A stretch of 64,000 nucleotides of DNA from Limimonas halophila (GTDB lineage Bacteria; Pseudomonadota; Alphaproteobacteria; Kiloniellales; Rhodovibrionaceae): assembly GCF_900100655.1 (NCBI RefSeq), contig NZ_FNCE01000001.1, forward strand, positions 62,001-126,000, written 5' to 3'. The translations under genes and the position numbers were made by a program. The notes below the pieces were generated by a model. It did not search any database. It saw only the letters and a list, made by a program, of their open reading frames with translations, and was not told the DNA's origin. How positions within the stretch are numbered: position 1 is the first letter of the stretch; every line of letters begins with the position of its first letter. Shown piece after piece: positions 2,881 to 27,172 of this stretch.

Positions 2881-2918
2881 GGCGCCCAACCCCCAAAAAA
2901 GACGACGCCTCTCGCCTG

Positions 2919-2953: not shown

Positions 2954-2957
2954 TGGC

Positions 2958-5470: not shown

Positions 5471-5473
5471 GCG

Positions 5474-6919
5474 TCAGCCCCCCTTGATCGTCTCGAACGC
5501 GGCCAGGGCGCGCTTGCGGGCGGCGCTGTGGTCCACGACGGGGTGGGGGTAGGTTTCGCCGAGCCGGACCCCCGCCCCCGTCAGCACCTGGGGCGGCGCC
5601 TGCCAGGGGGCGTGGATGTGCTTCGCCGGCATCCGCGCCAGCTCCGGCACCCAGGTGCGCACGTAGCCGCCCTCGGGGTCGAACTTCTGCCCCTGCGTGA
5701 CCGGATTGAAGATGCGGAAGTAGGGCGCCGCGTCGGCGCCGCAGCCGGCGACCCACTGCCACGAGGCCGAATTGTTGGCGAGGTCGGCGTCCACGAGCGT
5801 GTCCCAGAACCAGCGCTCGCCCCACTGCCACGGCAGCAGCAGGTCCTTCACCAGGAAGGAGCCGACGATCATGCGCACGCGGTTGTGCATCCAGCCCGTG
5901 GCCCACAGCTCGCGCATCCCGGCGTCGACCACGGGGTATCCGGTGCGTCCCGCCGTCCAGGCGGCGTAGGCGTCCGCATCGTCGCGCCAGGGGAAGGCGC
6001 GGAATTGCGATTTCCAGGTGGTTTCCGGGATCTCGGGCCACCAGTAGAGCAGGTGATACGAGAACTCCCGCCACACCAGCTCGCGCAGAAAATCCCAGCC
6101 GGCGGACTCCACCCCGGGCTCGGCCGCCATGCGGGCGCGCGTCGCGGCCCAGACCTGGCGCGGCGACACCTCGCCCCAGTGCAGGTGCGGCGACAGGCGG
6201 CTGGTGCCCGCTGTGTCGGGCCGGTTGCGCAACTCGGGATAGCCGGCGAGGCTGGTTTCCAGAAAGGCGTTCAGGCGCGCGTGGGCGCCGGCTTCGCCCG
6301 GTGTCCAGGCGGCGCGCAGGCCATGCGCCCAGTCGGGCGCCGTCGGCGTCAGCCCCCAGGCGTCGAGGGTCTCGCTGTCCGCCGTGACGCCGCCGGGGAC
6401 GCGTTCGGGCGCGGGCAAGGGCGCTTCGGGTTCCGGGCGCGCGCGGAACGCCTTCCAGTAGGGCGTAAACACCTTGTAGGGCGCGTCCGCGCCCGTCTTG
6501 ATGCCCCAGGGCTCGGCCAGCAGCCGCCCGTTGTGGCTTTCCGCGTGCACGCCGCGGGCGCGCAGGTCCGCCTTGATGCGGGCGTCGCGGTCGTTGGCCC
6601 AGGGCTCGTAGAGGCGGTTCCAGTGCACGGCCCCGGCGCCCACCGCCGCCGCCACGGCCGGCACGACCGTTTCCGCCGGCCCGCGCCGAAGGACCAGCGG
6701 CGCACCGAGGCGGTCCAGCGCATCGGCCAGCGCGCGCAGGGACTGGTGCAGCCACCACCGCGCGGCGCCGCCGGGGGCGTGCGCGCCGGGCGTCTCCTCG
6801 TCCAGCACGAACAGCGGCACCACCGGGTGCCCGTGGTCGATGGCCGCCGCCAGCGCGGGGTTGTCCGCCACCCGGAGGTCCGATCGAAACCACATCAAAG
6901 TGGGGCAATCACATCCCAT
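5474..6919 (-). CDS. phrB: deoxyribodipyrimidine photo-lyase (CPD photolyase)
   Basis: A 481-residue class I photolyase that uses blue light to split cyclobutane pyrimidine dimers in DNA. The N-terminal alpha/beta antenna domain begins with WFRSDLRVADNPAL (residues 10-23). The C-terminal FAD-binding helical domain contains SRLSPHLHWGEVSP and, near residues 345-400, WMHNRVRMIVGSFLVKD followed by the ASWQW-GCGADAAPYFRIFNP signature, with the tryptophans of the electron-transfer chain. Length fits the family (about 470-480). AAGGGA lies about 10 bases before the ATG. The gene is single and convergent with the chemoreceptor. Confidence 0.95.
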   Translation of the reverse strand: MGCDCPTLMWFRSDLRVADNPALAAAIDHGHPVVPLFVLDEETPGAHAPGGAARWWLHQSLRALADALDRLGAPLVLRRGPAETVVPAVAAAVGAGAVHWNRLYEPWANDRDARIKADLRARGVHAESHNGRLLAEPWGIKTGADAPYKVFTPYWKAFRARPEPEAPLPAPERVPGGVTADSETLDAWGLTPTAPDWAHGLRAAWTPGEAGAHARLNAFLETSLAGYPELRNRPDTAGTSRLSPHLHWGEVSPRQVWAATRARMAAEPGVESAGWDFLRELVWREFSYHLLYWWPEIPETTWKSQFRAFPWRDDADAYAAWTAGRTGYPVVDAGMRELWATGWMHNRVRMIVGSFLVKDLLLPWQWGERWFWDTLVDADLANNSASWQWVAGCGADAAPYFRIFNPVTQGQKFDPEGGYVRTWVPELARMPAKHIHAPWQAPPQVLTGAGVRLGETYPHPVVDHSAARKRALAAFETIKGG

Positions 6920-7240
6920 GATTGTGTTTCCCTTTCGGGGGGTTGATAACTCACGCGAACGCCGATACGCTCACGCCGATGTGACAGCCCGTTGAAGCCT
7001 TTGCGATCTTGTGTCGCATTGTATGACAGGGCAAATTCGGACTAGGTGTTCTGAACATGGGATGGAGTTCGTCCCATCGGGAGGGCGTCTCGCCTCGGCT
7101 AGGCCTCCTCACTTCCCGATAAAACTCCGTCCCGTGCGCCGGGCGGCGCCGGTCGTTCCCCCAACCCCACACCCCACCCTCGAGCGGTGTCGCCCGGCAT
7201 CCTTCCGACCCACCCGCGGGGACGATGGCGTCGTCGCCGC
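6920..7240. other. intergenic region with a long imperfect inverted repeat
   Basis: This 321-bp gap lies upstream of the photolyase gene and downstream of pdeM, both read leftward. It contains an imperfect inverted repeat: 7059-7084 (GGGATGGAGTT...ATCGGGAGG) pairs with 7112-7133 (CTTCCCGAT...AACTCCGTCCC), loop about 27 nt. No T-run follows, so it is not a clear terminator. I see no gene here. Confidence 0.45.
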
Positions 7241-7966
7241 TCACGACAAGAGGCGGTCGCCCGAAAAGCCGTACACGCTTTGCGTGCCCAGGACGTGGAC
7301 CCGGAACCGGGCCGCGAACAGGCTTTGAAAAGCCGGATCGCGCACGTTCAACCCCCCCGTGTAGGCACCGAACGCCGGGAGCACGAGGCGGCGGCCGTCG
7401 TGAACGAAACAGGACCGCCGGAGCGTGCGCCCGCGCACGCGCACCTTGGCCTTGGGGTGGTAGTGTCCGGAGACCTCGCCCGCAGGCAGCGCGTCGGTGC
7501 GCGCGATGTGGCGGAACACCAGGCCGCCCGCGCAATGCTCCTGCATGACCTCGCCGCCGAAGGCGGGGCTCGGGTCGGGGTCGTGGTTGCCCGCGATCCA
7601 GATCCAGTGGGCCCGCGCCGTCAGCGCGCGCAGCCGCTCGCCCTCAGCCGCGTCCAGCCGCTGCGGCCCGCCGGGGTCGTGAAAGGAATCGCCCAGGCAG
7701 ATCACGGTGTCGGGGCGGTGCCGGTCGAGCGCCGCGGCCAAGCGGTCCAGGGTTGCCGTGCTGTCGTGGGGCGGCAGGGGGCCGGCGCCGTGGCGGGTGT
7801 AATTGCTGCCCTTTTCCAGATGCAGGTCGGCGACGATGAGCGTGCGCCGGGCCGGCCACAGCAGCACGCCCGCCGGATCGGGCTGCAGCGCGACGCCGTT
7901 CAGGCGGATCGTTGGCTGCTCGGCGGTGGGCGCGTCCTGCGCTCGCACGGGCGATCGTCTCCTCAT
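7241..7966 (-). CDS. pdeM: ligase-associated DNA damage response endonuclease PdeM
   Basis: A 241-residue calcineurin-like metallophosphoesterase of the PdeM family, a predicted nuclease found with a DEXH helicase, an ATP-dependent ligase and an exonuclease in a DNA-damage gene set. The metal-binding motifs are in order: DLH (residues 47-49), GDSFHD, GNHDPD and GHYHPK. The first methionine in good context is at 7966; the frame remains open upstream but that part is Arg/Pro-rich and not family-like. The partner helicase gene lies on the same strand at 9411-11891. They are not adjacent here: a toxin-antitoxin pair and repeats of about 1.4 kb separate them. No ligase or exonuclease gene of the set is in the window. 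Confidence 0.88.
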   Translation of the reverse strand: MRRRSPVRAQDAPTAEQPTIRLNGVALQPDPAGVLLWPARRTLIVADLHLEKGSNYTRHGAGPLPPHDSTATLDRLAAALDRHRPDTVICLGDSFHDPGGPQRLDAAEGERLRALTARAHWIWIAGNHDPDPSPAFGGEVMQEHCAGGLVFRHIARTDALPAGEVSGHYHPKAKVRVRGRTLRRSCFVHDGRRLVLPAFGAYTGGLNVRDPAFQSLFAARFRVHVLGTQSVYGFSGDRLLS

Positions 7967-8150
7967 GCGCGGTCTTGTCGAGACGGCCGGCCTTGTCGAG
8001 CGGTCCCGCTTCCCACTGGCGGCGCGGGGCATGCGGCGGCGCTTCACCGCGCGTCGGCGCCGGGGTGGGGCAAGTGCCTCCCGTCGCCACGGCGGTGGGG
8101 GCCTCGAAGCGCGATTGATACGCGGCGAATCCCGCTTCGCCAATCCCGCC

Positions 8151-8258
8151 CTTTCTCCTGAAGGAGAAGGTGGTGGTTGGCGAAACGTCGCGTCGCGCCA
8201 ACCCTCTCCCGCCGGGAGATGGCCGCCCGGCGACCCCCGTCGCCGGGCGGGGGGAGGC
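8151..8258. repeat. interspersed palindromic repeat (REP-like), copy A
   Basis: The unit reads CTTTCTCCTGAAGGAGAAGG at 8151-8170, a spacer of about 30 bases, CCCTCTCCCGCCGGGAGA at 8202-8219, then a perfect 12-bp stem-loop (8223-8234 with 8239-8250, loop CCCC) and GGGGGAGGCGGTGAC. The same order of modules recurs at 63434-63563 and 63718-63847. The whole gap 7967-8432 downstream of the antitoxin gene has no other recognisable gene. Confidence 0.75.
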
Positions 8259-8350
8259 GGTGACGGTACGGATGGCAACGATTCCCAGACAGCCGCCCCC
8301 ATCGCGTTTGGACGGCGTCCGGTCAGCTGACGAAGGCGATCAAACATGCC
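8259..8350. repeat. direct repeat, left copy, flanking the toxin-antitoxin pair
   Basis: This 92-bp stretch is matched by 9305-9397 in the same orientation at roughly 80% identity by eye. Shared blocks include GCCGCCCCCATCGCG, TTGGACGGCGTC and GCGATCAA. The two copies bracket the PIN/RHH toxin-antitoxin genes. Confidence 0.8.
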
Positions 8351-8393
8351 ATGTTTGCGTCCGATCGCTTGACGGATGGGATGTTTGATCGCC
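8335..8393 (-). promoter_or_regulatory. perfect 13-bp inverted repeat after the antitoxin gene
   Basis: GGCGATCAAACAT (8335-8347) and its exact complement (8381-8393) are separated by 33 bases, about 40 bases downstream of the antitoxin stop. It may act as a transcription end or an mRNA-stabilising hairpin. There is no T-run, so the role is uncertain. Confidence 0.5.
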
Positions 8394-8432
8394 CCTATGC
8401 GGCCGCTCAGCGGCGGCACGCGCTTGATGCGG

Positions 8433-8654
8433 TTACCCCTCGTCGTCCCGGTCGAGGCGATCGAGCACGGCCAAGGCCGCATCCCGGTCGCCTTGAGACG
8501 CCATGGCCCGGAAGCGGTTCTCCACGTCCCACGCTGTGATGGCCTGGGTGCTCAACTCTTCGAACAGCTTGTTGACGCTGATCCCGCGGCTTTGGGCCAG
8601 GGCTTTCAAGCGGGCGGCTGTGTCGTCGGGCAGCCGGATCGTCAGGGTGCTCAT
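8433..8654 (-). CDS. ribbon-helix-helix antitoxin
   Basis: A 73-residue protein beginning MSTLTIRLPDDTAARLKAL, the beta strand and first helix of a CopG/Arc-type ribbon-helix-helix fold, followed by RGISVNKLFEEL for the second helix. The rest is a helical, acidic tail (DRDDEG end) likely to bind the toxin. RHH proteins of this size bind their own operator as dimers and neutralise a partner toxin. Its ATG overlaps the stop codon of the upstream PIN-domain gene (ATGA), showing translational coupling. The toxin comes first here, the reverse of the commonest order. Confidence 0.88.
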   Translation of the reverse strand: MSTLTIRLPDDTAARLKALAQSRGISVNKLFEELSTQAITAWDVENRFRAMASQGDRDAALAVLDRLDRDDEG

Positions 8655-9070
8655 GAGACTGCCTCCAGGTACGTTCGTGGTGTGCGGACATGGACATTGG
8701 GGACATGGAGATCGCCGCCGCCCACATCCCGCACGTTCCAAGTCACGATGTACGAGGCGGTGCCAGCCATCGCCAGCTCAACCAGATGGTTGTCGGCTTC
8801 ATCCGGCAGGTTGGGCCGCCAGCGATAGAAGATGTGCACCCACCGGCCCGCGGCTGCCAGCGCTGCCAACACGGCCTCTCGTTCCGCTCGCGTGGTCCCG
8901 GTGTCCATGTCCTGACGGGAGAGGACCGCTTCGTATTCCAACCATAGGGTGGTGCCGAAAAGGGGCACATCGCGACCGTCGATCGCGCGCCGCAGAACCT
9001 CGCGCGATCGCCCGCCCCCAGCGCGCAGACCCGCCACCACCACGTTCGTATCGAGAACGATGTCGGCCAT
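8651..9070 (-). CDS. PIN-domain toxin (COG1569-like)
   Basis: A 139-residue PIN-domain protein, a presumed Mg-dependent ribonuclease toxin. Residues 2-10 (ADIVLDTNV) supply the first catalytic Asp. The acidic centre continues with a Glu in LWLEYEAVL near residue 50, DEADNHLVELA near residues 92-102 and the WNVRDV segment near 117-122, all typical of the COG1569 family of putative toxins. The start at 9070 is chosen because the PIN core begins at residue 2; the frame is open to 9160 but the extra residues are not family-like. The stop overlaps the start of the RHH antitoxin gene. The pair lies between helicase and pdeM genes that usually cluster, suggesting insertion. Confidence 0.87.
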   Translation of the reverse strand: MADIVLDTNVVVAGLRAGGGRSREVLRRAIDGRDVPLFGTTLWLEYEAVLSRQDMDTGTTRAEREAVLAALAAAGRWVHIFYRWRPNLPDEADNHLVELAMAGTASYIVTWNVRDVGGGDLHVPNVHVRTPRTYLEAVS

Positions 9071-9304
9071 TTGGACAGCATATACGCTGTCACCCGACAG
9101 CCGCAATCGGTAAGGCGTGTCGTGCGCTGCGTGCCAAGGTGCGTCACTGGGTATAATCACCCTCGGGCATTGCGCGGAACACCTTCCATGTTTGTCGCAC
9201 GCTTCACCGTCACCGCCTCATCCCGATGAAGCTGGAGCCTCATCGATCTTGCGCGCCTGGGGCGTGCGAGGCGAGCAAAGCTCGCCTGTCCGCCTGAAGG
9301 AGAA
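9071..9304. repeat. inverted and rearranged REP-like sequence upstream of the toxin
   Basis: This region contains GTCACCGCCTCATCCC near 9207 (the reverse of the GGGGTGAGGC-GTGAC end of the repeat family) and CGCCTGAAGGAGAAGG just before 9305, so it is another, partly inverted copy of the interspersed repeat. The toxin promoter should lie near 9071-9150. No other gene is seen. Confidence 0.5.
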
Positions 9305-9397
9305 GGTGACGGTTCGGATGGCCACATTTCCCGAGAGTGCCGCCCCCATCGCGCTTGGACGGCGTCTGTTCGCTTGACAAATGCGATCAAGCACGCC
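9305..9397. repeat. direct repeat, right copy, flanking the toxin-antitoxin pair
   Basis: The partner of 8259-8350, in the same orientation. It ends 14 bases before the helicase stop codon. The similarity includes sequence with no obvious hairpin, so it is a duplicated segment and not only a palindromic module. Confidence 0.8.
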
Positions 9398-9410
9398 GTC
9401 TTTTCGATCG

Positions 9411-11891
9411 TCAATCCAGCGGCAGGCTCGCCTGATCCAGCTCGGGCGCGGTGGCCTCGGCGATGAGGTCGTCGGCGCTTTCTTCCAGCAGCGCGTCCAC
9501 GGCCTCGCCGTGCACCTGCTCGCGGCCGATCTCCAATAGCACGGGCACGGCCAGCGGCGAGATGCGCGGCAGGTGGTGGACCCGCAGCTTGCCCTGAACG
9601 CGGGCGAGCATCTGGTCCAGCCGCGCCACGTCGGTCAAGCCGGCGGCGGCCTCCTGGCGCGTGGCGCGCAGCAGCACGTGGCCGGGCTCGTGCTTGCGCA
9701 GCACGTCGTAGATCAGCTCGGACGAGAAGGTGACCTGCTTGCCGGACTTCTCGCGGCCGGGCACCTGGCGGTCGATGAGGCCCGCGACGAGGCCGACGTT
9801 GCGGAAGGTGCGGCGCAGCAGCGAGGACTCCGCCATCCACTCCTCCAGGTCGTCGCCCAGGATGTCCTGCTCGAACAGCGCCTCGATGTGGGCGGTGTCG
9901 AGCGGCTTGGCGCTCCACACCCCGAGCACGTAGTCCGTGCCGACGAAGCCCAGCGGCTGCAGGCCCATGCGCTCCATGCGGCGGGTGAGCAGCATGCCGA
10001 GCGTCTGGTGGGCGTTGCGGCCCTCGAAGCAGTAGGCGACGAGGTAGTGGACCTCGTTGCGCGGGAAGGTCTCCACCAGCAGCCCCTCGCGCCCCGGCAC
10101 GGCGGAGCGCCAGCGCTGGATGCCCAGCCATTCGGCCACGGGGTCGGGCAGGTCGCGCCATTCCCGGCGGTCTTCCAGGATGCCGCGCACGCGCTCGGCC
10201 AGGTGTGTGGACAGCGGCAGCTTGCCGCCGATGTAGGCGGGCACCTTGGGCGCGTCGGGGCCCTTCGCGCGCGTCACCTCGCACGTCAGCCCGACGATGC
10301 GCTCGAAGCGCAGCATCTCGCCGCCGAAGATGAAGGTGTCGCCGGCCGTGAGGTGCTGGGCGAAGAACTCCTCGACCTCGCCGAGCGTGCGGCCCTTGCG
10401 CAGCTGCACCGCGAGCGTCGGCGCCTCCACGATCGTGCCCACGTTGAGGCGGTAGCGCTGCGCGTCGGGGATGCTGGTGACGCGGTAACGCCCCTGTTCG
10501 TCGTGCTGCAGGCGGCGATAGCGCCGGTAGCTCTTGAGCGCGTAGCCGCCGTGGTCCACGAAGGCGAAGCAGTCGTCGAAGTCCTCGCGTGCGAGGTCGC
10601 GGTAGGGCTGGGCGTGGCGGACCTCGTGGTAGAGCTCGTCCGGGTCCACCGGCCCGGCGCAGGCCATGCCCAGGATGTGCTGGGCGAGCACGTCCAGCCC
10701 GCCGGCCCTGGCCGGTTCGCCGTCCAGGGTGCCGTGGCGGATGGCGTCCACGGCGGCGCGGCACTCCAGCACCTCGAAGCGGTTGGCGGGCACCAGGAGC
10801 GCGCGGCTGGGCGCGTCCAGGCGGTGGTTGGCGCGGCCGATGCGCTGGAGCAGGCGCGAGACGCCCTTGGGCGCGCCGATCTGGACCACGAGGTCGATGG
10901 CGCCCCAGTCGATCCCGAGGTCGAGCGAGGAGGTGGCGACCACCCCGCGCAGCTCCCCGCGCGCCATGGCGGCTTCCACCTTGCGGCGCTGTTCGATCGC
11001 CAGCGAGCCGTGGTGGAGCGCGATGGGCAGCGCGTCCTCGTTCAGCCGCCACAGCTCCTGAAAGACGATTTCCGCCTGCGCGCGCGTGTTGACGAAGACC
11101 AGCGCGGTCGTGGCGGCGCGGATGCGCTCGTAGACCTCGCCGAGGGCGTGCACGGCCATGTGGCCCGCCCACGGCAGGTATTCGCGCGTGGTCAGGATCT
11201 CGATCTCGGGTTTCGGCCCTTCGCCACCGTCGATGCGGGCCACGCGGCCGTCGTCTTCACCGCTCGCCGAGAGCCAGGCCGCCAGCGTGTCGGGTTGCGC
11301 CACCGTGGCCGAGAGCCCCACGCGCCGCACGCCCGGCGCCAGGCGGTCCAGCCGCGCCAGATCGAGCGCCAGCAGGTCGCCGCGCTTGGTGCCGGCGAGC
11401 GCGTGCAGCTCGTCGATCACGACCGAGCGCAGGCCGGCGAAGACCTCGCCCGCGTCCGGGTAAGACAGCATCAGCGCCAGGGATTCCGGCGTCGTCAGCA
11501 GGATGTTGGGCGGCTGGCGGCGCTGGCGCTGGCGCTTGCTCTGCGGCGTGTCGCCCGTGCGCGTTTCCAGGCTAACGGGCGCGGTCATCTCCGCCACGGG
11601 GTCGGTGAGGTTGCGGTGGATGTCCTGCGTCAGCGCCTTCAGCGGCGCGACGTAGAGGGTGTGCAGCCCGTCGCGGGGCTGCGCGATCAGCTCCGCCAGC
11701 GTGGGCAGGAAGCCGGCGAGCGTCTTGCCGCCGCCCGTGGGCGCGGTCAGCAGCGCGGAGCGACCCTGGGCCGCCGTTGCCAGCATGGCCCATTGATGGG
11801 GATGCGGCTGCCAGCCGCGGCCGGCGAACCAGTCGGCGAGCGGTTGGGGTAGGTCGGTCGGCGGGGCGTCGGCGCTCATCGATCCGGACAT
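9411..11891 (-). CDS. ligase-associated DNA damage response DEXH-box helicase (Lhr-like)
   Basis: An 826-residue superfamily 2 helicase. The Walker A motif TAPTGGGKT is at residues 49-57, followed by the DEXH box VVIDELHAL, the SAT motif (GLSATVA), TSSLDLGIDWG and motif VI QRIGRANHR. The C-terminal third has the winged-helix and Lhr-core regions of Lhr-family proteins. Length fits the ligase-associated subfamily (about 820-850), whose members travel with pdeM, an ATP-dependent ligase and an exonuclease. The start is uncertain: ATGs at 11891 and 11879 both fit. A further in-frame ATG at 11984 lies inside a 31-bp tandem repeat and would add an unlikely Pro/Arg-rich tail. No clear Shine-Dalgarno sequence precedes any of them. 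Confidence 0.9.
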   Translation of the reverse strand: MSGSMSADAPPTDLPQPLADWFAGRGWQPHPHQWAMLATAAQGRSALLTAPTGGGKTLAGFLPTLAELIAQPRDGLHTLYVAPLKALTQDIHRNLTDPVAEMTAPVSLETRTGDTPQSKRQRQRRQPPNILLTTPESLALMLSYPDAGEVFAGLRSVVIDELHALAGTKRGDLLALDLARLDRLAPGVRRVGLSATVAQPDTLAAWLSASGEDDGRVARIDGGEGPKPEIEILTTREYLPWAGHMAVHALGEVYERIRAATTALVFVNTRAQAEIVFQELWRLNEDALPIALHHGSLAIEQRRKVEAAMARGELRGVVATSSLDLGIDWGAIDLVVQIGAPKGVSRLLQRIGRANHRLDAPSRALLVPANRFEVLECRAAVDAIRHGTLDGEPARAGGLDVLAQHILGMACAGPVDPDELYHEVRHAQPYRDLAREDFDDCFAFVDHGGYALKSYRRYRRLQHDEQGRYRVTSIPDAQRYRLNVGTIVEAPTLAVQLRKGRTLGEVEEFFAQHLTAGDTFIFGGEMLRFERIVGLTCEVTRAKGPDAPKVPAYIGGKLPLSTHLAERVRGILEDRREWRDLPDPVAEWLGIQRWRSAVPGREGLLVETFPRNEVHYLVAYCFEGRNAHQTLGMLLTRRMERMGLQPLGFVGTDYVLGVWSAKPLDTAHIEALFEQDILGDDLEEWMAESSLLRRTFRNVGLVAGLIDRQVPGREKSGKQVTFSSELIYDVLRKHEPGHVLLRATRQEAAAGLTDVARLDQMLARVQGKLRVHHLPRISPLAVPVLLEIGREQVHGEAVDALLEESADDLIAEATAPELDQASLPLD

Positions 11892-12017
11892 GGCACGGCG
11901 CGGGGCGCACGGAAAGAGCCATGGAACGGCGCGGGGCGCACGGAAAGAGCCATGGCACGGTGCGGGGCGCACGGAAAGAGCCATGGCACGGCGCCGGGAG
12001 CAGGGAAAGAGGCATGG
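11890..12017. repeat. 31-bp tandem repeat at the helicase 5' end
   Basis: Four units of 31 bp begin at 11890, 11921, 11952 and 11983, with the start of a fifth at 12014. Each begins ATGGCACGG or a one-base variant and contains GCGGGGCGCACGGAAAGAG; the last is more diverged. Every junction holds the palindrome CCATGG, so each unit offers an ATG on the minus strand. Since 31 is not a multiple of three, each ATG is in a different frame relative to the helicase. Confidence 0.92.
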
Positions 12018-12183
12018 GACGGCCGCCGCCCGCTGGCAGGCTGCGCGGAGCGCCGGGGTCCCGGCGTGGCACGACGCCTGCGCCCTGTGACAAGCGTGTG
12101 AAGTGGTGGCGCGCGCGCCGATTCGCCCGGTACGCTCGATGAATTCGAGGGGTTTTGGGTTTTTTCAAACCCAGGAGGTAGCC

Positions 12184-12555
12184 ATGTCGAACGCCCGAAA
12201 CCGGGAATCCATTGAGGCGACGCTCTACGCCTATCTCAATGGCATGCGCCATGCCGATCCCGGGTTGTTAAAAATCGCATTTCACGACGACGCGAATCTT
12301 TGTGGGCCAATGGGCGATTCCATGCTCACCGGACCGGTTTCCCGGCTGCTGTCCTGGGTGGAAAACGATCTGGCGCCGGGTGGTACCGGGCGGGACCACG
12401 GCATGCGGGTCGAGGAGATCGAGATCCACGAGCCCATCGCGCTGGTGAAGTGCCGCGAAACCGGGTTTCTGGGGCGCGACGCCCTGGACGTCTTCACGCT
12501 GGTCCAGCAGGGCGCGGGCTGGAAAATCACCAACAAGTCCTGGACGCTGATGTAA
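12184..12555 (+). CDS. NTF2-like / putative lumazine-binding family protein
   Basis: A 123-residue protein with a strong ribosome-binding site (AGGAGGTA) five bases upstream of the ATG at 12184. The first part (ESIEATLYAYLNGMRHADPGLLKIAFHDDA) has the long N-terminal helices of the cone-shaped NTF2-like fold. The second half holds the curved sheet, ending WKITNKSWTLM, as in SnoaL-like and putative lumazine-binding proteins. Such proteins are small enzymes or ligand binders with varied roles, so no reaction can be assigned. The gene stands alone, divergent from the helicase and convergent with the peroxiredoxin gene. Confidence 0.82.
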   Translation: MSNARNRESIEATLYAYLNGMRHADPGLLKIAFHDDANLCGPMGDSMLTGPVSRLLSWVENDLAPGGTGRDHGMRVEEIEIHEPIALVKCRETGFLGRDALDVFTLVQQGAGWKITNKSWTLM

Positions 12556-12576
12556 GCGTGCGCGCCGGCGCAAAAC

Positions 12577-12605
12577 GGCCCGGCGGGCCGCGCACCCGCC
12601 GGGCC
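12577..12605 (-). terminator. terminator of the peroxiredoxin gene
   Basis: A perfect 11-bp stem (12577-12587 with 12595-12605, GGCCCGGCGGG and complement) is followed on the minus strand by GTTTTG. It lies between two convergent genes and may serve both. Confidence 0.7.
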
Positions 12606-12616
12606 GGTCGCCGCTG

Positions 12617-13279
12617 TTACGCATTCGGCTGCGGAATGACGCGCAGGTAGGGCTTCAGCGTCTTCCAGCCGTCCGGATACTTCTTCTGCGCATCATCGTT
12701 GGAGACGCTGGGCGCGATGATCACGTCCTCCCCCTGCTGCCAGTCGGCCGGCGTGGCGACGGCGTGCTCGGCCGTGAGCTGCAGCGAATCGATGGCGCGC
12801 AGGATCTCGGCGAAGTTGCGGCCCGTGCTCATGGGGTAGGTGAGGATCAGCTTCACCTTCTTGTCCGGGCCGACGACCACGACGTAGCGCACCGTCAGGT
12901 TGTCCACAGGGGTGCGGCCCTCGGAGCTCTCGCCGGCGTCGGCCGGGAGCATGCCGTAGAGCTTGGCGACCTTCAGGTCGCTGTCGCCGATGATCGGGTA
13001 GTTGGGCGCGTTGCCCGTGACGTCCTCGATGTCCTGGGCCCACTGCTTGTGGCTGTCGACGGGGTCGACGCTCAGGCCGAGCATCTTCACGCCGCGCTTG
13101 TCGAACTCGGGCTTGAGCTTGGCGGCGGCGCCCAGCTCGGTGGTGCACACCGGCGTGAAGTCCTTCGGGTGGGAGAACAGGATCGCCCAGTTGTCGCCGA
13201 TCCACTCGTGGAAGCGGATCGGGCCCTCGGTCGTCTGCGCCTCGAAGTCCGGCGCGATGTCGTTGATACGCAGCGTCAT
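12617..13279 (-). CDS. 1-Cys peroxiredoxin (Prx6 family)
   Basis: A 220-residue thiol peroxidase that reduces hydrogen peroxide and organic peroxides. The peroxidatic cysteine is Cys45 within FTPVCTTELG, where Thr47 completes the PxxxT/SxxC-type active site. The thioredoxin-fold domain is followed by the long C-terminal arm typical of Prx6 proteins (QQGEDVIIAPSV, then KTLKPYLRVIPQP). There is no resolving cysteine in a C-terminal VCP motif, so it is of 1-Cys type. The start at 13279 follows GGAGGAGAC by a few bases. It sits upstream of a hairpin terminator and next to an AhpD-like gene, which fits an oxidative-stress role. Confidence 0.93.
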   Translation of the reverse strand: MTLRINDIAPDFEAQTTEGPIRFHEWIGDNWAILFSHPKDFTPVCTTELGAAAKLKPEFDKRGVKMLGLSVDPVDSHKQWAQDIEDVTGNAPNYPIIGDSDLKVAKLYGMLPADAGESSEGRTPVDNLTVRYVVVVGPDKKVKLILTYPMSTGRNFAEILRAIDSLQLTAEHAVATPADWQQGEDVIIAPSVSNDDAQKKYPDGWKTLKPYLRVIPQPNA

Positions 13280-13437
13280 CGTCTCCTCCATCGGGTCGGG
13301 GTGCGCGTCTCGGTCGTGCCTGTGTACCAGTCGCCGCCCGGCGCGCCCATCGCAGCCACGCCGGATATAGGCACGGCTGCCGGCTCGTGCATCCCCGGGT
13401 GATGGACGAAGCCGGCCCGGGCGGCGCCGTGCCCGGG

Positions 13438-13986
13438 TTACTGCCCGGGCAGCTTGCAGAAGCCCTGCGGCGGCACGTCGAGCGCGCTGTTGAATTTGCT
13501 GGACATGTTCTGGAAGGCGATCAGCCCCGTCAGCTCGGTGAGCGCGTCGTCGTCGAAGTGCTGCTTCAGGGCCTGCATCATCTCCTCGCTCACGCGCCCG
13601 TCGGTGTGGGTAACCGCCTCGGTGTAGGCGAGCACCGCGCGTTCGCGCGCGTCGAAGGCGTTGCTTTCCCGCCAGCTCGGCAGGGCGTCGATCTTGGCCC
13701 AGTCGACGCCGCGCTTGTTGAGCGTTTTGGAATTGATGTCGACGCAGAAGGCGCAGTGGTTGATCTGCGACACAAGCACCGTGACGAGCGCCCGCAGGGC
13801 GGGATCGAGCGGGCTTTTTCGGCGCTCGAACGCGCCGTAGAGCAGCGCCACGGCGGCGAACACCTTGGGCGAGCGCGCCCACAGCAGCGCCGGCTCCAGC
13901 ACGGCCCCGTACGTGCGCTTCTGGTTCCAGAAGAAGGGGCGCAGGTACCAGGGGTAGGCCGAAAGCGGCTTGGGCTCGACGTGCAT
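13438..13986 (-). CDS. carboxymuconolactone decarboxylase / AhpD-like protein
   Basis: A 182-residue all-helical protein of the CMD/AhpD-like fold. The key motif is HCAFCVDIN: Cys78 and Cys81 form the CxxC pair used by AhpD-type enzymes for disulfide reduction, with a following Asp/Asn. The segment RERAVLAYTEAVTH is also typical of the family, as is the downstream ELTGLIAFQNMSSKFNSAL. The usual role is peroxidase or reductase activity, or decarboxylation in distant relatives. Its neighbour is the 1-Cys peroxiredoxin on the same strand, 160 bases downstream, so a shared antioxidant function is a reasonable inference. Confidence 0.85.
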   Translation of the reverse strand: MHVEPKPLSAYPWYLRPFFWNQKRTYGAVLEPALLWARSPKVFAAVALLYGAFERRKSPLDPALRALVTVLVSQINHCAFCVDINSKTLNKRGVDWAKIDALPSWRESNAFDARERAVLAYTEAVTHTDGRVSEEMMQALKQHFDDDALTELTGLIAFQNMSSKFNSALDVPPQGFCKLPGQ

Positions 13987-14067
13987 GGTGACGGCGGCTC
14001 GCTGATCCCGGGCGCGGCGGGCCGGCGCGCGGCTGCCGGCCGCGCGAGGGCGTCGAGCGAGGTGGGG

Positions 14068-14433
14068 CTAGCCCTCGTCCTCGTCCAGCGCGTCCAGGCG
14101 GCCGCGCAGGCCATCCAGGCGCGAGGCCAGGTCCGCCGTCAAGGCGCGCGCCTGCGCCACCTCTTCGCGCAGGGCCGCCACGGGGTCGTCCGCGGTCGGC
14201 GCGGTGCCTTCCGCGTCGCCGTTGCCGAGCACCCAGCCGACATCCACGCCCAGCGCGTCGGCGAGGGTCACCAGCTTGTTCGCGCGCGGCGCGCTCTGGC
14301 CGCTTTCCCAGGCGGCCAGGGTTTCCCGCGTGACGCCCGTGCGCCGCGCCACTTCCGAGGCGGAGAGCTGCGCTTCGCTGCGTTGACGGCGGATGCGATC
14401 CCCGATTTCTACGGGGGAGGGTTCGTGGCGCAT
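14068..14433 (-). CDS. XRE-family transcriptional regulator with coiled-coil tail
   Basis: A 121-residue protein. Residues about 9-66 form a Cro/CI helix-turn-helix (IGDRIRRQRSEAQLSASEVA, then TGVTRETLAAWESGQSAPR and ANKLVTLADALGV). The second half (about 80-118) is a heptad-like helix rich in Ala, Leu, Asp and Glu, predicted as a dimerising coiled coil. GAGG precedes the ATG at 14433 at good spacing; an earlier ATG at 14451 is possible. Its target is unknown. The divergent neighbour is miaA, and the CMD and peroxiredoxin genes follow on the same strand. Confidence 0.85.
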   Translation of the reverse strand: MRHEPSPVEIGDRIRRQRSEAQLSASEVARRTGVTRETLAAWESGQSAPRANKLVTLADALGVDVGWVLGNGDAEGTAPTADDPVAALREEVAQARALTADLASRLDGLRGRLDALDEDEG

Positions 14434-14678
14434 GGCAGACCTCATCTGCAACGGTTGCGGGCGGCCGCGCCAGCCGCCGCCCCATCCCGGCCGTCCGGGT
14501 TAACGACAGCCGCCCCGGACGACCCCGCTTGTTAACCCTGCCTGTTTAGCATGCACGCGCGGCCCCTGCGAGCGAATCCCTGTGACACCCGCGTTTCCTG
14601 TGGGGTTTTGGGCCCGTCCGTCGGGTCGTGCCGCTCAGGGGCTTGCAGGCGGCGCCCGGCGGTCCGTAATGCAGCGGC

Positions 14679-15662
14679 ATGGATCGCGAGGTCAGCGCAG
14701 CCATTCCCGCGCGCAAGCCAGTGGTCGCCGTCACCGGCCCCACCGCCAGCGGCAAGTCCGGCCTTGCGCTCGCCGTGGCGGAGGCGCTCGGCGGCACGGT
14801 CATCAACGCGGACTCCATGCAGATCTACCGCGAGGTGCCGGTGCTCACCGCCGCGCCGACGGCCGCCGAGATGGCCCGCGCGCCGCACCGGCTTTACGGC
14901 GTGCGCGACGCCGCGCGCCCCTGTTCGGCGGAAGCTTGGCGCGAACTCGCCCTGCGCGAGATCGCGAGCGCGCACGCCCACGGCCGCCTGCCCATCGTCG
15001 TGGGCGGCACGGGCCTGTACCTGCGCGCCCTCACGCGCGGGATCGCCCCCATCCCGGACGTGCCCGCCGACATCCGCGCGGCCGTGCGCGCGCGCCAGCA
15101 AGCGGTGCCGCCGCCGCAGCTGCACGCCGAGCTGACGGCTGAAGACCCGCGGATGGCCGCGCGGCTGGACGTCAACGACAGCCAGCGCGTCGCCCGCGCG
15201 CTGGAGGTCGTGCGCGCGACGGGGCGCTCGCTGGCCGCCTATCAGGCGCTGCCCGACGCGGGCGCGGCCCCCTACGACACGCTGGGCGTCCTCTCGGTGC
15301 CGCCGAAAGCGGACGTGGACGCGGCCGCCGACGCGCGTTTCGACGCCATGCTGGCCGCGGGCGCGGTCGAGGAGGTGCGCGCGCTCGCCGCCCGCAACCT
15401 GGATCCCACGCTGCCCGCGATGCGCGCCGTGGGCGTCCCGCCGCTGCTGCGCCACGTGCGCGGCGAAATCGATCTGGACGCCGCGGCCGCCGCGGCGAAA
15501 CGCGACACGCGGAAGTATGCCAAGCGCCAGCTCACCTGGCTGCGCAACCAGAGCCCGCAAGATTTTTGCAAGATTGTCCGCGTTCAAGAGCAATTTTCGG
15601 AAAGTCATATGACCCACGTCTTGGCGAAAATTCGCCGGTTCGTGTTGACCGGGGAACCTTGA
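14679..15662 (+). CDS. miaA: tRNA dimethylallyltransferase
   Basis: A 327-residue enzyme that transfers a dimethylallyl group to N6 of adenosine 37 in tRNAs reading UNN codons. The P-loop GPTASGKS is at residues 20-27, followed by INADSMQIYREVPVLTAAPT (the DSxQxY substrate motif), the GGTGLYLRAL motif and the RDTRKYAKRQLTWLRNQ tRNA-binding segment near the C-terminus. Length is slightly above the usual 300-315. No clear ribosome-binding site is visible before the ATG. In many alphaproteobacteria miaA stands directly upstream of ilvB, and that is so here, about 200 bases away. Confidence 0.95.
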   Translation: MDREVSAAIPARKPVVAVTGPTASGKSGLALAVAEALGGTVINADSMQIYREVPVLTAAPTAAEMARAPHRLYGVRDAARPCSAEAWRELALREIASAHAHGRLPIVVGGTGLYLRALTRGIAPIPDVPADIRAAVRARQQAVPPPQLHAELTAEDPRMAARLDVNDSQRVARALEVVRATGRSLAAYQALPDAGAAPYDTLGVLSVPPKADVDAAADARFDAMLAAGAVEEVRALAARNLDPTLPAMRAVGVPPLLRHVRGEIDLDAAAAAAKRDTRKYAKRQLTWLRNQSPQDFCKIVRVQEQFSESHMTHVLAKIRRFVLTGEP

Positions 15663-15861
15663 CCCCGTACCGTCGCCCGCCACATCGGGGGGAAAGCGGT
15701 GCGTGCGCGGCTGTCACGACGGGAGCGTGCGGTGCGGCGCAGCATTCACGCTTGCCCCGGCGGCACGTTGCGTGCTCATCTGCCGGCGACGCCCGTACTG
15801 CGGTGCGGCATTCACCGTTTGGCTCACGAGCGACACGGATCACGATAGGGACAGGACAGCC

Positions 15862-17634
15862 ATGACGGACGAAAGCATGACCGGCGCCCAGATGGTGCTG
15901 AAGGCCCTGGAGGAGCAGGGCGTGGAAGCCATCTTCGGCTACCCGGGCGGCGCTGTCCTGCCCATCTACGACGCGCTCTATGAGGTCGAGAAGCTCCACC
16001 ACATCCTGGTCCGGCACGAGCAGGGCGCGGTGCACGCGGCCGAGGGCTATGCGCGTTCCAGCAACCAGGTTGGCGTGGCGCTGGTCACCTCCGGGCCCGG
16101 GGCGACCAACGCCGTCACCGGCCTGACCGACGCGATGATGGATTCCATCCCGGTGGTCTGCCTGACGGGGCAGGTGCCGACGCACCTGATCGGCAACGAT
16201 GCCTTTCAGGAGGCGGACACCACCGGCATCACGCGGCCCTGCACGAAGCACAACTACCTCGTGAAGTCGATCGCGGATCTGCCGCGCATCATGCACGAGG
16301 CCTTCCACGTCGCGCGCTCCGGGCGGCCTGGGCCTGTCGTGGTCGACCTGCCCAAGGACGTGCTCCAGGCGCAGGGCACCTACGTGCCGCGCGGGGAGGT
16401 GCGCCACCGCACCTACAACCCGCAGACGCGCGGGGATGCCGGCGCCATCGCGCAGGCCGTGGAGCTGCTGGCGAACGCCAAGCGCCCGATCATCTACACC
16501 GGCGGCGGCGTCATCAATTCGGGGCCGGAGGCCGCGGAGCTGCTGACCGCCTTCGCGCGCGCCACGGGCGCGCCCATCACCAACACCGTCATGGGCCTGG
16601 GCGCCTATCCCGGCACGGACCCGCAGTTCCTGGGCATGCTCGGCATGCACGGCACCTACGAGGCCAACATGGCCATGCACGACTGCGACGTCATGCTGGC
16701 CATCGGCGCGCGCTTCGACGACCGCGTGACCGGCAAGGTCTCGGCCTTCGCGCCCTATTCGAAGAAGATCCAGATCGACATCGATCCCAGTTCGATCAAC
16801 AAGAACGTCGTCGTGGACGTGCCCATCGTCGGCGACGTGCGCGAGGTGCTGAGCGAGATGCTGCGCCTGTGGCGCGAGGGCGGTCACGAAATCGACCAGG
16901 AGGCGCTGAGCGCTTGGTGGAAGCTGATCGGCGACTGGCGCAGCGTCGAATGCCTCAAGTACGAGCAGCTCGGCGACGTCATCAAGCCGCAGTACGCCAT
17001 CGACCGCCTGGCGAAGCTCACCGAGACGCGCGACGACGTCTACATCACCACCGAGGTGGGCCAGCACCAGATGTGGGCGGCCCAGTACATCACCTTCAAC
17101 AAGCCCAACCGCTGGATGACGTCCGGCGGCCTGGGGACGATGGGCTACGGCCTGCCCGCCGCGGTGGGCACGCAGGTCGCCAACCCCGACGCGCTGGTGG
17201 TGGACGTGGCCGGCGAGGCGTCGATCCTGATGAACATGCAGGAGATGTCGACGCTGGTGCAGTACGGCCTGCCGGTGAAGATCTTCATCGTGAACAACCA
17301 GTGGATGGGGATGGTCCGGCAGTGGCAGGAGCTGCTGCACGGCGAGCGCTACTCGCAGAGCTACACCGAGAGTCTGCCGGACTTCGTCAAGCTGGCGGAG
17401 GCCTATGGCGCCACGGGGCTGCGCGCCACCAAGCCGGGCGAGGTGGACGACGTCATCCAGCAGATGATCGACACGCCGGGCCCGGTGATCGTGGACTGCT
17501 GCGTCGATCAGGTGGAGAACTGCTTCCCCATGATCCCGGCGGGTGCCGCGCACAACGAGATCCTGCTCGGCCCCGAGGACACGGCGGCCGAGGAGGATGC
17601 CGACACGCAGAACGACGGCATGGTGCTCGTCTGA
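15862..17634 (+). CDS. ilvB: acetolactate synthase, large (catalytic) subunit
   Basis: A 590-residue thiamine-diphosphate enzyme that makes acetolactate or acetohydroxybutyrate for valine, leucine and isoleucine synthesis. The N-terminal domain has YPGGAVLPIYDAL and the catalytic Glu53 in RHEQGAVHAAEG. A central FAD-binding domain is followed by the TPP-Mg motif, here VAGEASILMNMQE. A Glu replaces the usual Asp of GDG/GDA, which I believe is a variant seen in alphaproteobacterial sequences. The ATG at 15862 follows AGGACAGCC; the frame is open from 15703 without family-like residues. The regulatory subunit ilvN, normally next, is absent: the following gene is on the other strand. Confidence 0.95.
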   Translation: MTDESMTGAQMVLKALEEQGVEAIFGYPGGAVLPIYDALYEVEKLHHILVRHEQGAVHAAEGYARSSNQVGVALVTSGPGATNAVTGLTDAMMDSIPVVCLTGQVPTHLIGNDAFQEADTTGITRPCTKHNYLVKSIADLPRIMHEAFHVARSGRPGPVVVDLPKDVLQAQGTYVPRGEVRHRTYNPQTRGDAGAIAQAVELLANAKRPIIYTGGGVINSGPEAAELLTAFARATGAPITNTVMGLGAYPGTDPQFLGMLGMHGTYEANMAMHDCDVMLAIGARFDDRVTGKVSAFAPYSKKIQIDIDPSSINKNVVVDVPIVGDVREVLSEMLRLWREGGHEIDQEALSAWWKLIGDWRSVECLKYEQLGDVIKPQYAIDRLAKLTETRDDVYITTEVGQHQMWAAQYITFNKPNRWMTSGGLGTMGYGLPAAVGTQVANPDALVVDVAGEASILMNMQEMSTLVQYGLPVKIFIVNNQWMGMVRQWQELLHGERYSQSYTESLPDFVKLAEAYGATGLRATKPGEVDDVIQQMIDTPGPVIVDCCVDQVENCFPMIPAGAAHNEILLGPEDTAAEEDADTQNDGMVLV

Positions 17635-24839: not shown

Positions 24840-25991
24840 ATGAGCTTCAACCCCTTCCACCAGAACCCGGACTACACCCTCACCCAGAAGCTCGGCGGCG
24901 TGACCTGGGGACTGGTGCTCATCGTCTGCACGCTCGCCGGCATCGGCTGCACGATGCTGTATTCCGCCGCCAGCGGGGCCTGGGAGCCGTGGGCGAAGGA
25001 CCAGGCGCTGCGCTTCGGCGTCGGCTTCTTCGGCATGATGGCGGTGGCGCTGATCGACGTGCGCGTCTGGTTCCGCTGGGCGTGGGTGATCTACGCGCTC
25101 GCCGTTGGCCTCTTGGTGGCGACCGAGGTGGGCGGCGTGACGGGGCAGGGCGCCCAGCGCTGGATCGACCTCAAGGTGATCCAGCTCCAGCCCTCGGAGC
25201 TGATGAAGGTGGCGCTGGTGCTGGCGCTGGCGCGCTACTTCCACGGCCTGTCGGAGGAGGAGGTGGCGCGACCGACGCGCCTGATCGCACCGCTGCTGGC
25301 GGTGGCCGTGCCCGTGGGGCTGGTGATGCAGCAGCCGGACCTGGGTACGGGACTGATCCTGCTGATGATCGCCGGAGCGGTCTTCTTCGCTGCCGGGGTG
25401 CGCTTGTGGAAGTTCGGCGTGGTGATCGGGGCGGGGATCGTGTCGATCCCCATCGCTTGGCAGTTCCTGCACGCGTATCAGAAGGAGCGCGTGCTCACCT
25501 TCCTGAACCCGCAGAACGATCCGCTGGGCGACGGCTACCACATCCTGCAGTCCAAGATCGCGCTGGGCGCGGGCGGGTTGTTCGGCAAGGGATTTCTGGA
25601 AGGCACGCAGAGCCACCTCAACTTCCTGCCGGAAAAACAGACCGACTTCATCTTCACGATGCTGGCCGAGGAGTTCGGCATGGCCGGCGGGCTGGCGCTG
25701 CTCGGGCTGTACGCCGTCGTGCTGCTCTACGGCCTGGCCATCGGCATGCGCGCGCACAACCACTTCGGCCGACTCCTGGCGCTCGGGCTGACGGTGAACA
25801 TCTTCCTCTACGTCTTCCTCAACATCGCCATGGTGATGGGGGTGATTCCCGTCGTGGGCGTGCCGCTGCCGCTGATCTCCTACGGCGGCACCGCGATGCT
25901 GGCGATGCTCGGCACGCTCGGGTTGCTGATGTCGGTCCATGTGCACCGCGACGTTCGCATTCCCCGGCGCGGGCTGGAGGACGAGCAGTAG
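24840..25991 (+). CDS. mrdB: peptidoglycan glycosyltransferase RodA
   Basis: A 383-residue SEDS-family polytopic membrane protein (about ten membrane helices) that polymerises lipid II as the partner of PBP2. Family motifs seen are GAQRWIDLKVIQLQPSELMK (about residues 103-122), QPDLGTG, the large periplasmic loop with LGDGYHILQSKIALGAGGLFGKG, LPEKQTDFIFTMLAEEFG, and PLISYGGTAMLA near the end. It is the last gene of mreBCD-mrdAB; a tRNA-Lys gene follows 83 bases on. Confidence 0.96.
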   Translation: MSFNPFHQNPDYTLTQKLGGVTWGLVLIVCTLAGIGCTMLYSAASGAWEPWAKDQALRFGVGFFGMMAVALIDVRVWFRWAWVIYALAVGLLVATEVGGVTGQGAQRWIDLKVIQLQPSELMKVALVLALARYFHGLSEEEVARPTRLIAPLLAVAVPVGLVMQQPDLGTGLILLMIAGAVFFAAGVRLWKFGVVIGAGIVSIPIAWQFLHAYQKERVLTFLNPQNDPLGDGYHILQSKIALGAGGLFGKGFLEGTQSHLNFLPEKQTDFIFTMLAEEFGMAGGLALLGLYAVVLLYGLAIGMRAHNHFGRLLALGLTVNIFLYVFLNIAMVMGVIPVVGVPLPLISYGGTAMLAMLGTLGLLMSVHVHRDVRIPRRGLEDEQ

Positions 25992-26074: not shown

Positions 26075-26150
26075 GGGCGTGTAGCTCAGCTGGTAGAGCA
26101 GGCGACTCTTAATCGCCGAGTCCGGGGTTCGAATCCTCGCACGCCCACCA
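26075..26150 (+). tRNA. tRNA-Lys (anticodon CTT)
   Basis: A 76-nt gene including an encoded CCA. The acceptor stem GGGCGTG pairs with CACGCCC, the D arm is AGCTCAGCTGGTAGAGC, the anticodon stem GGCGA/TCGCC encloses CTCTTAA with anticodon CTT, and the T arm contains GGTTCGAATCC. Its 3' 47 bases serve as the attachment site of the element downstream and are duplicated at 27125. Confidence 0.97.
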
Positions 26151-26151
26151 C
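26104..26151 (+). repeat. attachment-site repeat within the intact tRNA-Lys
   Basis: 48 bp from the anticodon stem through the CCA end plus one base, identical to 27125-27172. The upstream copy keeps the whole tRNA gene, as expected when an element enters at the 3' end. Confidence 0.93.
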
Positions 26152-26209
26152 CATCTCCCTGAAATCCCTGAAAAAATCGAAAAATGAAAGGGCAGGATCA
26201 CTGCCCTAA

Positions 26210-26355
26210 GTTGGAAAAGTTGGAACAGGTTGGATTCCAACCTCGGACGCCCCTGATTCGAGGGTGCGCGGGCGTCAAAAATATCACCGATTCTACTGGT
26301 GGTAGCGGCCGCTCCATAGCGACACACGAAGGGGCAAGGTTGGAACAGGTTGGAA
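26210..26355. repeat. clustered GTTGGAA repeats, possible integrase arm sites
   Basis: GTTGGA(A) occurs at 26210, 26219, 26229, 26339 and 26349 in direct orientation. The 15-mer TTGGAACAGGTTGGA is present twice (26220-26234 and 26340-26354). The near palindrome GGTTGGATTCCAACC is at 26228-26242. A GGATTCCAAC copy recurs at the far end (27076-27085). Groups of short direct repeats beside an attachment site are typical of integrase arm-binding or directionality-factor sites; that role is inferred. Confidence 0.55.
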
Positions 26356-26363
26356 AAATGTAA

Positions 26364-26402
26364 CCGGAAAAAGAATGGGCGAGGTCCCGCAGCCCCGCCC
26401 AT
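26364..26402 (-). terminator. terminator of the element's leftward gene
   Basis: ATGGGCG (26375-26381) pairs perfectly with CGCCCAT (26396-26402). On the minus strand the stem is followed by TTCTTTTTCC. It lies about 120 bases beyond the stop of the gene at 26521-26805. Confidence 0.65.
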
Positions 26403-26520
26403 AAAACGACTATTTATTCAGGGATAGGTCTGTTTGAGCGTACTGGCTCAGTAGCATGGGGCAGAAGCTCGAAGTCCCGTTCAAAGTTGGTTTCCCCGTT
26501 TGCGTCCTCCACGAGTGCTG

Positions 26521-26805
26521 CTACGGCTGTTGCTCGCCGCCATTATCGCCCGTGGTCTTAGGGTTATCTGGGTTCGGGGTATCTGAGCCGTCTCGGTCGA
26601 TGGACTTACCGGCGGAGTACATGTGGTCAGACTGCAGCCCGCTAAAGCCCTTGGCGCTGGCACGACGCTGGCGCATGTCGAGGCGTACTGTGTGGTACTT
26701 ACAAGACAACTCTTTCGCCAGTTGATCCAGGTGCTCAGCTGCTTTGGCAGCGTCGATTATACCAGGAACTTCCATATCTATAGTCATTGTAGCTCGAAGC
26801 TTCAT
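26521..26805 (-). CDS. hypothetical protein of the tRNA-Lys element
   Basis: A 94-residue protein with no recognised family. The first half (MKLRATMTIDMEVPGIIDAA, then KAAEHLDQLAKELSCKYHTV) looks like a beta strand followed by two helices, a compact alpha/beta domain. The second half is polar and Gly/Pro/Asn/Asp-rich, so probably disordered. GGAG lies nine bases before the ATG at 26805; a methionine five codons upstream is possible. Codon use is much less GC-biased than in neighbouring genes, supporting transfer. It is the only credible gene in the element. A regulator, a small DNA-binding protein or an anti-defence factor are all possible, but nothing in the sequence decides between them. 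Confidence 0.6.
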   Translation of the reverse strand: MKLRATMTIDMEVPGIIDAAKAAEHLDQLAKELSCKYHTVRLDMRQRRASAKGFSGLQSDHMYSAGKSIDRDGSDTPNPDNPKTTGDNGGEQQP

Positions 26806-26859
26806 GTCTGGGTTCTCCATTGTGAGTGAAGAGCTGTTTGAGCTTTTGTAACAGTTCGT

Positions 26860-26963
26860 TTAGGTCACATTGTTGTTAGAAGATGATCCATTGCACTGTG
26901 TCCGAAAAGGGCGCGTCTAGCTAGGGTTTAGGCACTTTGCGTGAGCTGTTAGTGACCTAACAG
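26860..26963 (-). promoter_or_regulatory. hairpin and matching inverted repeat upstream of the element gene
   Basis: CTGTTAG (26946-26952) and CTAACAG (26957-26963) form a perfect hairpin with loop TGAC. Part of it, GTGACCTAA (26952-26960), is also complementary to TTAGGTCAC at 26860-26868. Both lie upstream of the leftward gene at 26805, so they could be operator half-sites or alternative RNA pairings in its leader. Confidence 0.45.
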
Positions 26964-27124
26964 ATGTACACCTTTTCGTAGAGAATTGATACTGAAAACG
27001 CGCGACCAAAGCAGAGCATCAAAACGCCACAGAAATGCAGTCTAAAAAAATCGGAACCGTGATGATCCTCACGTCGGATTCCAACTTGCAACTGTAAGTG
27101 CTTGTTTTAGCTAGGTAATGGCCG

Positions 27125-27172
27125 GACTCTTAATCGCCGAGTCCGGGGTTCGAATCCTCGCACGCCCACCAC
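27125..27172 (+). repeat. attachment-site repeat (tRNA-Lys 3' fragment)
   Basis: A perfect 48-bp copy of 26104-26151 containing the anticodon loop, T arm and CCA end. It lacks the 5' half of the tRNA and is not a functional gene; it marks the distal end of the element. Confidence 0.93.

Follow-up and report, generated by a model that had tools for sequence, protein, structure and literature searches.

The locus downstream of rodA in Limimonas halophila raises the question of how DNA that carries no recombinase could have become enclosed between two copies of a tRNA gene end. In the 64,000-nucleotide stretch of this genome analyzed here (the window), the 3′ part of tRNA-Lys(CTT) recurs as a direct repeat of 48 bp with 0 mismatches, the two copies starting 1,021 bp apart (Table 1), as a preliminary description of the same DNA had stated.

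Boundaries and contents of the element

The repeat provides the intervening segment (the element) with flanking attL and attR, and the arrangement has the pattern of tRNA integration by tyrosine recombinases, in which the core corresponds to the 3′ part of the tRNA gene and is flanked by arm-like sites, here putative in their arm function. The DNA between the repeats had been described as compositionally foreign, and its G+C content is indeed 0.51 versus 0.70 for the 64-kb window. The element is located on a contig of 653,550 bases and is single-copy in its own genome (3.04 Mb in 26 contigs, 100% complete), where the 25 matches at E ≤ 10 comprised the element itself and short matches, the next eight of which (L014 to L021) each fell on a tRNA gene. 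The 1.0-kb inserts that were to be sought in related genomes were not encountered, no element DNA being detected in the 60 other genomes of the order. None of the CRISPR spacers tested against the window (33 from the own genome, from which one 120-base interval and the gap between arrays were left out, and 31 from genome G002) matched the element.

Table 1. Features of the tRNA-Lys locus; positions are those of the window.
Feature	Position	Strand	Basis
rodA, chromosomal neighbor upstream of tRNA-Lys	24840..25991	+	NCBIfam TIGR02210 3e-123; tblastn
tRNA-Lys(CTT), intact, integration target	26075..26150	+	ARAGORN; Rfam tRNA 67.7 bits
attL core, from anticodon stem through CCA end and one further base	26104..26151	+	exact 48-bp repeat
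Element interior, 973 bp, 51% G+C	26152..27124	.	
Second terminator-like stem, directed at tRNA	26189..26207	-	within shuffle expectation
Arm-type-like GTTGGAA sites, left end, at 26210 and 26219	26210..26225	+	core distance resembles L295-L298, L300
Arm-type-like site, opposite orientation, left end	26235..26241	-	
Second GTTGGAA pair (26339, 26349)	26339..26355	+	
Terminator-like stem downstream of ORF	26375..26402	-	within shuffle expectation
94-codon ORF, orphan, length within chance	26521..26805	-	
Arm-type-like site, right end, 39 bp before right core copy	27079..27085	-	
attR core, tRNA 3′ part without 5′ part	27125..27172	+	exact 48-bp repeat; ARAGORN: no second tRNA there

No integrase or recognizable fragment of one was detected in the interior by tblastn with 10 integrases (best E = 0.079) or by an integrase hidden Markov model (HMM) applied to its six frames (best E = 0.96), in agreement with the earlier view that the element has no recombinase. 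The accompanying idea that an integrase might be borrowed from a resident phage or island led to no evident cognate enzyme. The four PF00589 matches in the genome are two Xer-like genes, one short fragment (L011), and, beside tRNA-Gln, a recombinase broken by a TAG (L012); both Xer-like genes score below the XerC/XerD equivalog cut-offs, one of them above the cut-off of a tyrosine recombinase subfamily. Because these matches are Xer-like, fragmentary, or broken, no resident integrase is an evident helper, and neither L011 nor L012 contains the GTTGGAA sites described below. The genome also contains two CRISPR arrays, in which a 27-base repeat occurs in 36 exact copies (L305, C1 578000-592000, at about 2.8–9.6 kb), and one of these arrays adjoins the TAG-broken tyrosine recombinase at tRNA-Gln(CTG).

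The clustered repeats of 7 to 15 bp noted previously near the attachment site share an underlying motif, GTTGGAA, of which there are 10 copies in the 64 kb (both strands), 6 of them within the 973-bp interior. Six copies were reached by 0 of 2,000 shuffles of the interior that kept dinucleotide composition, the largest number being 3. When the element is closed as a circle, the sites are found at −69(−), +83, +92, +108(−), +212, and +222 relative to GTTCGA, so that all six occupy a span of about 300 bp at the circle junction. Judging from this arrangement, the repeats appear to be arm-type-like integrase sites, laid out as around an attP, with a putative arm function, and this strengthens the integration reading. 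The exact repeat, the foreign composition, the arm-like sites, and the lack of any integrase trace collectively bear out the claim that an element without a recombinase is integrated at tRNA-Lys.

The same description assigned to the element a single 94-codon gene with its own terminator. Both the open reading frame (ORF) and the stem are present, and the ATG of the ORF is preceded by GGAG, a plausible ribosome-binding site; neither the ORF nor the stem, however, exceeds shuffle expectation. The full open frame of 99 codons was equalled or exceeded in 257 of 1,000 single-base shuffles when any start codon was allowed and in 147 of 1,000 with an ATG start, and the element contains 2 terminator-like stems against a shuffle mean of 1.4. 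Hence, the boundaries of the element are established, whereas the gene and its terminator are not. Searches with the ORF product yielded nothing in PHROGs and Pfam (best E = 0.32 and 0.12, respectively), an implausible best match in NCBIfam (0.034), no relative in PADLOC, PDB sequences, or phages, only sequences sharing an exact short peptide in viral and genome contig collections, and a lowest E of about 2 among plasmids. Among 58 relatives, the own genome was recovered together with seven matches (E = 0.006–0.1) that we judged to be noise, and a search of 142 genomes of the class that included its own detected the product in none of the 141 others. An AlphaFold model built with no alignment had a pLDDT of 55.9.

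Occupied tRNA ends and the GTTGGAA motif in other genomes

For comparison, we examined the tRNA-Lys locus in each of 29 further genomes of the order (28 with the CTT anticodon and one with TTT); contig ends cut some of these loci. The rodA gene is present in 21 of the 29, a second copy of the tRNA-Lys 3′ part within the locus in none, and GTTGGAA on the tRNA strand within the next 350 bp likewise in 0 of 29, although two of the loci stop at the tRNA and contribute no sequence to this count; one locus (L153) has a single GTTGGAA on the other strand behind tRNA-Lys. Two loci are occupied by integrase-bearing elements. In L161/L307, rodA and tRNA-Lys are followed about 100 bp behind by an integrase (PF00589, 1.6e-13), and two CCGTTTCCAC repeats are located at about the same distance from the tRNA as the GTTGGAA sites of the window. 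In L308 (G044, 1138-17552), rodA precedes an island of 16.3 kb that is bounded by two whole tRNA-Lys(CTT) genes and carries an integrase at its right end (PF00589, 2.5e-24). In this order, therefore, elements do integrate at the tRNA behind rodA. The island in L308 also carries several large ORFs, one of them methyltransferase-like by eye and another 1,833 codons long, and could be a defence island. The two genomes that belong to the family of L. halophila (L145 and L146) have rodA and tRNA-Lys, and the gene that lies downstream of the element in the window was not found in either locus, which provides no original right flank for comparison. In one of the two (L146/L306, from G002), tRNA-Lys(CTT) is followed, at a distance of about 100 bp, by a CRISPR array with 32 repeats.

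Scanning of genomes for GTTGGAA clusters gave at least 80 loci; in at least 5 of the matches listed (L191, L217, L218, L222, and L237), the cluster has a whole tRNA no more than 300 bp away, and in another of them (L225) a partial one. Directly behind alphaproteobacterial tRNA genes, clusters were found at tRNA-Lys(TTT) in L237, tRNA-Phe in L222, and tRNA-Arg in L218. In Mesorhizobium sp. Root157 (L225/L322), a tRNA 3′ copy is followed by three sites and then by the start of a recombinase (DUF6538 and PF00589, 2.1e-8), with another integrase, this one including an arm-binding domain, on the other side of the tRNA 3′ copy; the copy is flanked by two different tyrosine recombinases, an arrangement known from tandem elements.

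In two other loci, the integrase is decayed. Both L222 (Hyphomicrobiales; tblastn E = 1.5e-7, with no support from PHROGs) and L237 (Sediminimonas; tblastn E = 2.7e-5, in two frames) have, beyond the sites, only part of an integrase end, related in sequence to the enzyme encoded by the viral contig L300 (see below). A further locus, L318 of Sediminimonas qiaohouensis (1700-1881), has tRNA-Arg(ACG) followed after 37–54 bp by two GTTGGAA motifs and farther on by a long chromosomal frame; it gave no match to an integrase. On the other side is a kinase-like gene with 68% identity to a gene of the provirus contig L298, where it is likewise located upstream of a tRNA-Arg. The tRNA-Lys(TTT) of L237, with its three sites and a broken integrase end, belongs to this genome as well. 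The relics in L222 and L237, together with L318, indicate that loss of the integrase with retention of the sites is not peculiar to the window element. No match to the ten integrases was obtained by tblastn for L191 or L217, and a possible truncated integrase read by eye in L218 had no Pfam, PHROG, or tblastn support; a further site pair in the genome of L218 (L319) is beside no tRNA and has no integrase match. The full layout of a tRNA end plus sites was recovered in 0 of 384 other genomes of the class as searched, that is, only in the own genome among 385, so such places are rare in that sample.

Among viral contigs, a tRNA end followed by two GTTGGAA motifs was found in 8 stretches, and in 5 of these (L295 to L298 and L300) the tRNA end adjoins a tyrosine recombinase. 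The reversed motif, used as a control, gave 9 stretches, with an integrase beside the tRNA end in 0 of 9; the raw counts are thus no higher for the motif than for its reverse, and only the association with integrases differs. Six of the 9 control stretches lie in tRNAs with no integrase match. One control stretch (L313) with an integrase-like frame about 1 kb away was discounted, its GTTCGA being located at the end of the locus in a sequence that does not resemble a tRNA end. From the motif set, we set aside L294 and L299, which have no tRNA end, and L301, in which ARAGORN predicts a tRNA with no integrase beside it. The integrase HMM used for the viral stretches was built from the integrases of the motif set itself; the families were therefore checked separately, and assignment to tyrosine recombinases came from Pfam for L295 and L298 and from PHROGs for L300 and L298, L300 having no Pfam match. 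L295 to L298 constitute one related group (42–83% identity; L298 shares 83% identity with L296 and 62% with L297). Because the integrase open frame extends over the sites at its 3′ end in these records, coding conservation could add to the association between motif and integrase in this group.

L300 offers a counterpart to the circularized element. Its integrase (phrog_1, 4.2e-19) and an Rz-like spanin (phrog_456, 2e-10) lie on opposite sides of the core, so that L300 reads as an attP, and its sites, at −79(−), +58, +69, and +95(−) relative to GTTCGA, have the same order and orientation as the inner arm sites of the element. Distances and signs vary elsewhere: in L297, an 11.5-kb record, a far core copy is preceded by one site about 45 bp before it on the other strand, and this far-end site and the sites of L225 are in the other orientation. 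Scanning of the viral contigs for attP-type arrangements returned 4 stretches, namely L300 and L302 to L304. The latter three, near-identical phages in which an apparently whole tRNA has TTCCAAC on one side and two GTTGGAA motifs on the other, were set aside, as no integrase was seen within 2.5 kb. In the viral contigs L039, L045, L052, L060, and L073, GTTGGAAC arrays adjoin large frames that by eye are VirE-like or AAA-type replication genes. These arrays are iteron-like, and it is odd that one motif should occur beside replication genes and integrases alike.

Origin of the element

Based on these comparisons, we consider that the element is probably an internal-deletion derivative of a larger integrated element, decayed and cis-mobilizable (CIME-like), and most likely an ordinary relic, that is, a case of an already known kind. 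We infer deletion, arm-site function, and latent mobility along the following lines. A larger element (prophage, satellite, or island) would have entered the 3′ end of tRNA-Lys(CTT) via a tyrosine recombinase, and an internal deletion would then have removed the integrase and nearly all cargo, while attL, attR, and the arm-type sites of either end stayed in place. Excision, or recombination with an incoming element, might still occur in principle through a recombinase reading the GTTGGAA arms and the core. No enzyme reading these arms was found in the own genome, so the element is probably static at present. The deletion reading is favored by the six GTTGGAA sites, the L300-like layout, the integrase-bearing elements at the same tRNA, and the decay observed in L222 and L237. 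Against it, the window element has no integrase code, whereas L222 and L237 kept traces; a full-length parent with the same ends at this site was not found among the 60 other genomes of the order. The equal raw counts for the motif and its reverse in viral contigs, the possible contribution of coding conservation in L295 to L298, the variation in site distances and signs, the GTTGGAAC arrays beside replication genes, and the lack of the full layout in the 384 other class genomes as searched likewise count against it, although the motif gave 8 stretches and its reverse 9.

Of the two origins offered in the preliminary description, the scar of a larger island is thus the one that fits better, and the minimal non-autonomous unit, of which no second copy was found, is the less supported. 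The latter would have arrived as a 1-kb circle with an attP, arm sites, and one small gene, its integrase acting in trans. Neither end is truncated, arm-like sites flank the core in the L300 order, the interior holds no integrase relic, and the ORF has a plausible ribosome-binding site, all as expected of such a unit; nevertheless, we regard this origin as unlikely, because the element is single-copy in its own genome and has no copy in the 60 other genomes of the order, the ORF product has no relative in the searches and its length is within chance, and no evident cognate integrase is resident. Nor was a family of several copies with conserved ends and similar size found, judging from the own genome, the 60 other genomes of the order, and the search for the ORF product in 141 other genomes of the class. 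A broader proposal, in which GTTGGAA-armed tRNA sites would define a group of alphaproteobacterial non-autonomous units of at most about 1 kb with complete attP ends, riding on incoming phage integrases as MITEs do on transposases, is highly speculative, and we give it very little weight. If such a group exists, the window element and perhaps L318 would be members; L222 and L237 were dropped as candidates because both hold integrase relics.

The motif itself lends itself to another interpretation, in which the GTTGGAA repeats are replication iterons and the segment is the relic of a satellite or plasmid-like replicon with its origin near the attachment site. The GTTGGAAC arrays beside the VirE-like or AAA-type frames of the five viral contigs agree with it, but the sites of the element are distributed to both sides of the core, their signs matching those in the L300 attP, and those of L225/L322, L222, L237, and L295 to L298 occur where a tRNA end adjoins an integrase, whole or decayed, which makes a replicative role quite improbable. 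That no mobile element is involved at all, the repeat having arisen by simple duplication of the tRNA end or through misassembly, is hardly credible: the arrangement is confined to one genome, and a second 3′ copy is missing from all 29 other tRNA-Lys loci, as this explanation would have it, but the foreign composition, the presence of arm-like sites at each end, and the length of the contig speak against it.

Read as a deletion derivative, the element is a clean relic, its 1 kb comprising little beyond attL, attR, and the arm-like sites, and it may therefore represent what a GTTGGAA-type tyrosine recombinase needs. GTTGGAA near tRNA ends could also be used to find att sites and relics that are overlooked by island finders keyed to integrases.

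Comparison with known systems

The nearest relatives of the element in layout are the loci identified in this work. Like the element, L225/L322, L295 to L298, and L300 have a tRNA 3′ end with GTTGGAA, on either strand, within about 115 bp of GTTCGA; unlike the element, they carry an integrase and further genes, and none of them targets tRNA-Lys(CTT). L222 and L237 resemble it in having GTTGGAA behind a tRNA gene and no whole integrase, but each retains part of an integrase end and has no second att copy in the locus, whereas the element has both att copies and no such remnant. Among the papers listed by searches of the open-licence literature, none was, to judge by its title or the start of its abstract, devoted to minimal non-autonomous tRNA elements in Alphaproteobacteria, and those listed for the GTTGGAA motif were two on Drosophila.

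Clustered arm-type motifs are described for the attP of ICEMlSymR7A of Mesorhizobium, the tyrosine recombinase of which is IntS: this attP spans 283 bp and includes five arm-type motifs with the consensus TGKTGGTATC, all five of which are needed for efficient integration (PMC11963761). The element is similar in the clustering of its arm motifs and differs in their sequence, and ICEMlSymR7A carries its own intS. Islands between copies of the tmRNA 3′ end at ssrA in Dehalococcoides include 15 without integration modules that are possibly cis-mobilizable (PMC3146451). According to that account, they differ from the element in the use of a serine recombinase at ssrA, in their rdhA cargo, and in their occurrence as tandem arrays in several strains.

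The class had been presumed to be little described in alphaproteobacteria. As the cited sources indicate, however, att-flanked elements without integration genes are already known as CIMEs (PMC5704250; PMC3146451). CIMEs of the Streptococcus type are flanked by attL and attR, have lost their integration and transfer genes, and are regarded as decay products of an ICE or IME (PMC5704250). The window element has the same flanks and contains neither an integrase nor transfer genes, which makes it CIME-like and sets it apart from autonomous prophages, ICEs, and IMEs, all of which have an integrase of their own. It departs from the Streptococcus CIMEs, as described there, in its length of 1 kb, in that no resident helper was found, and in that no tandem accretion was seen, and it may descend not from an ICE or IME but from a phage or satellite.
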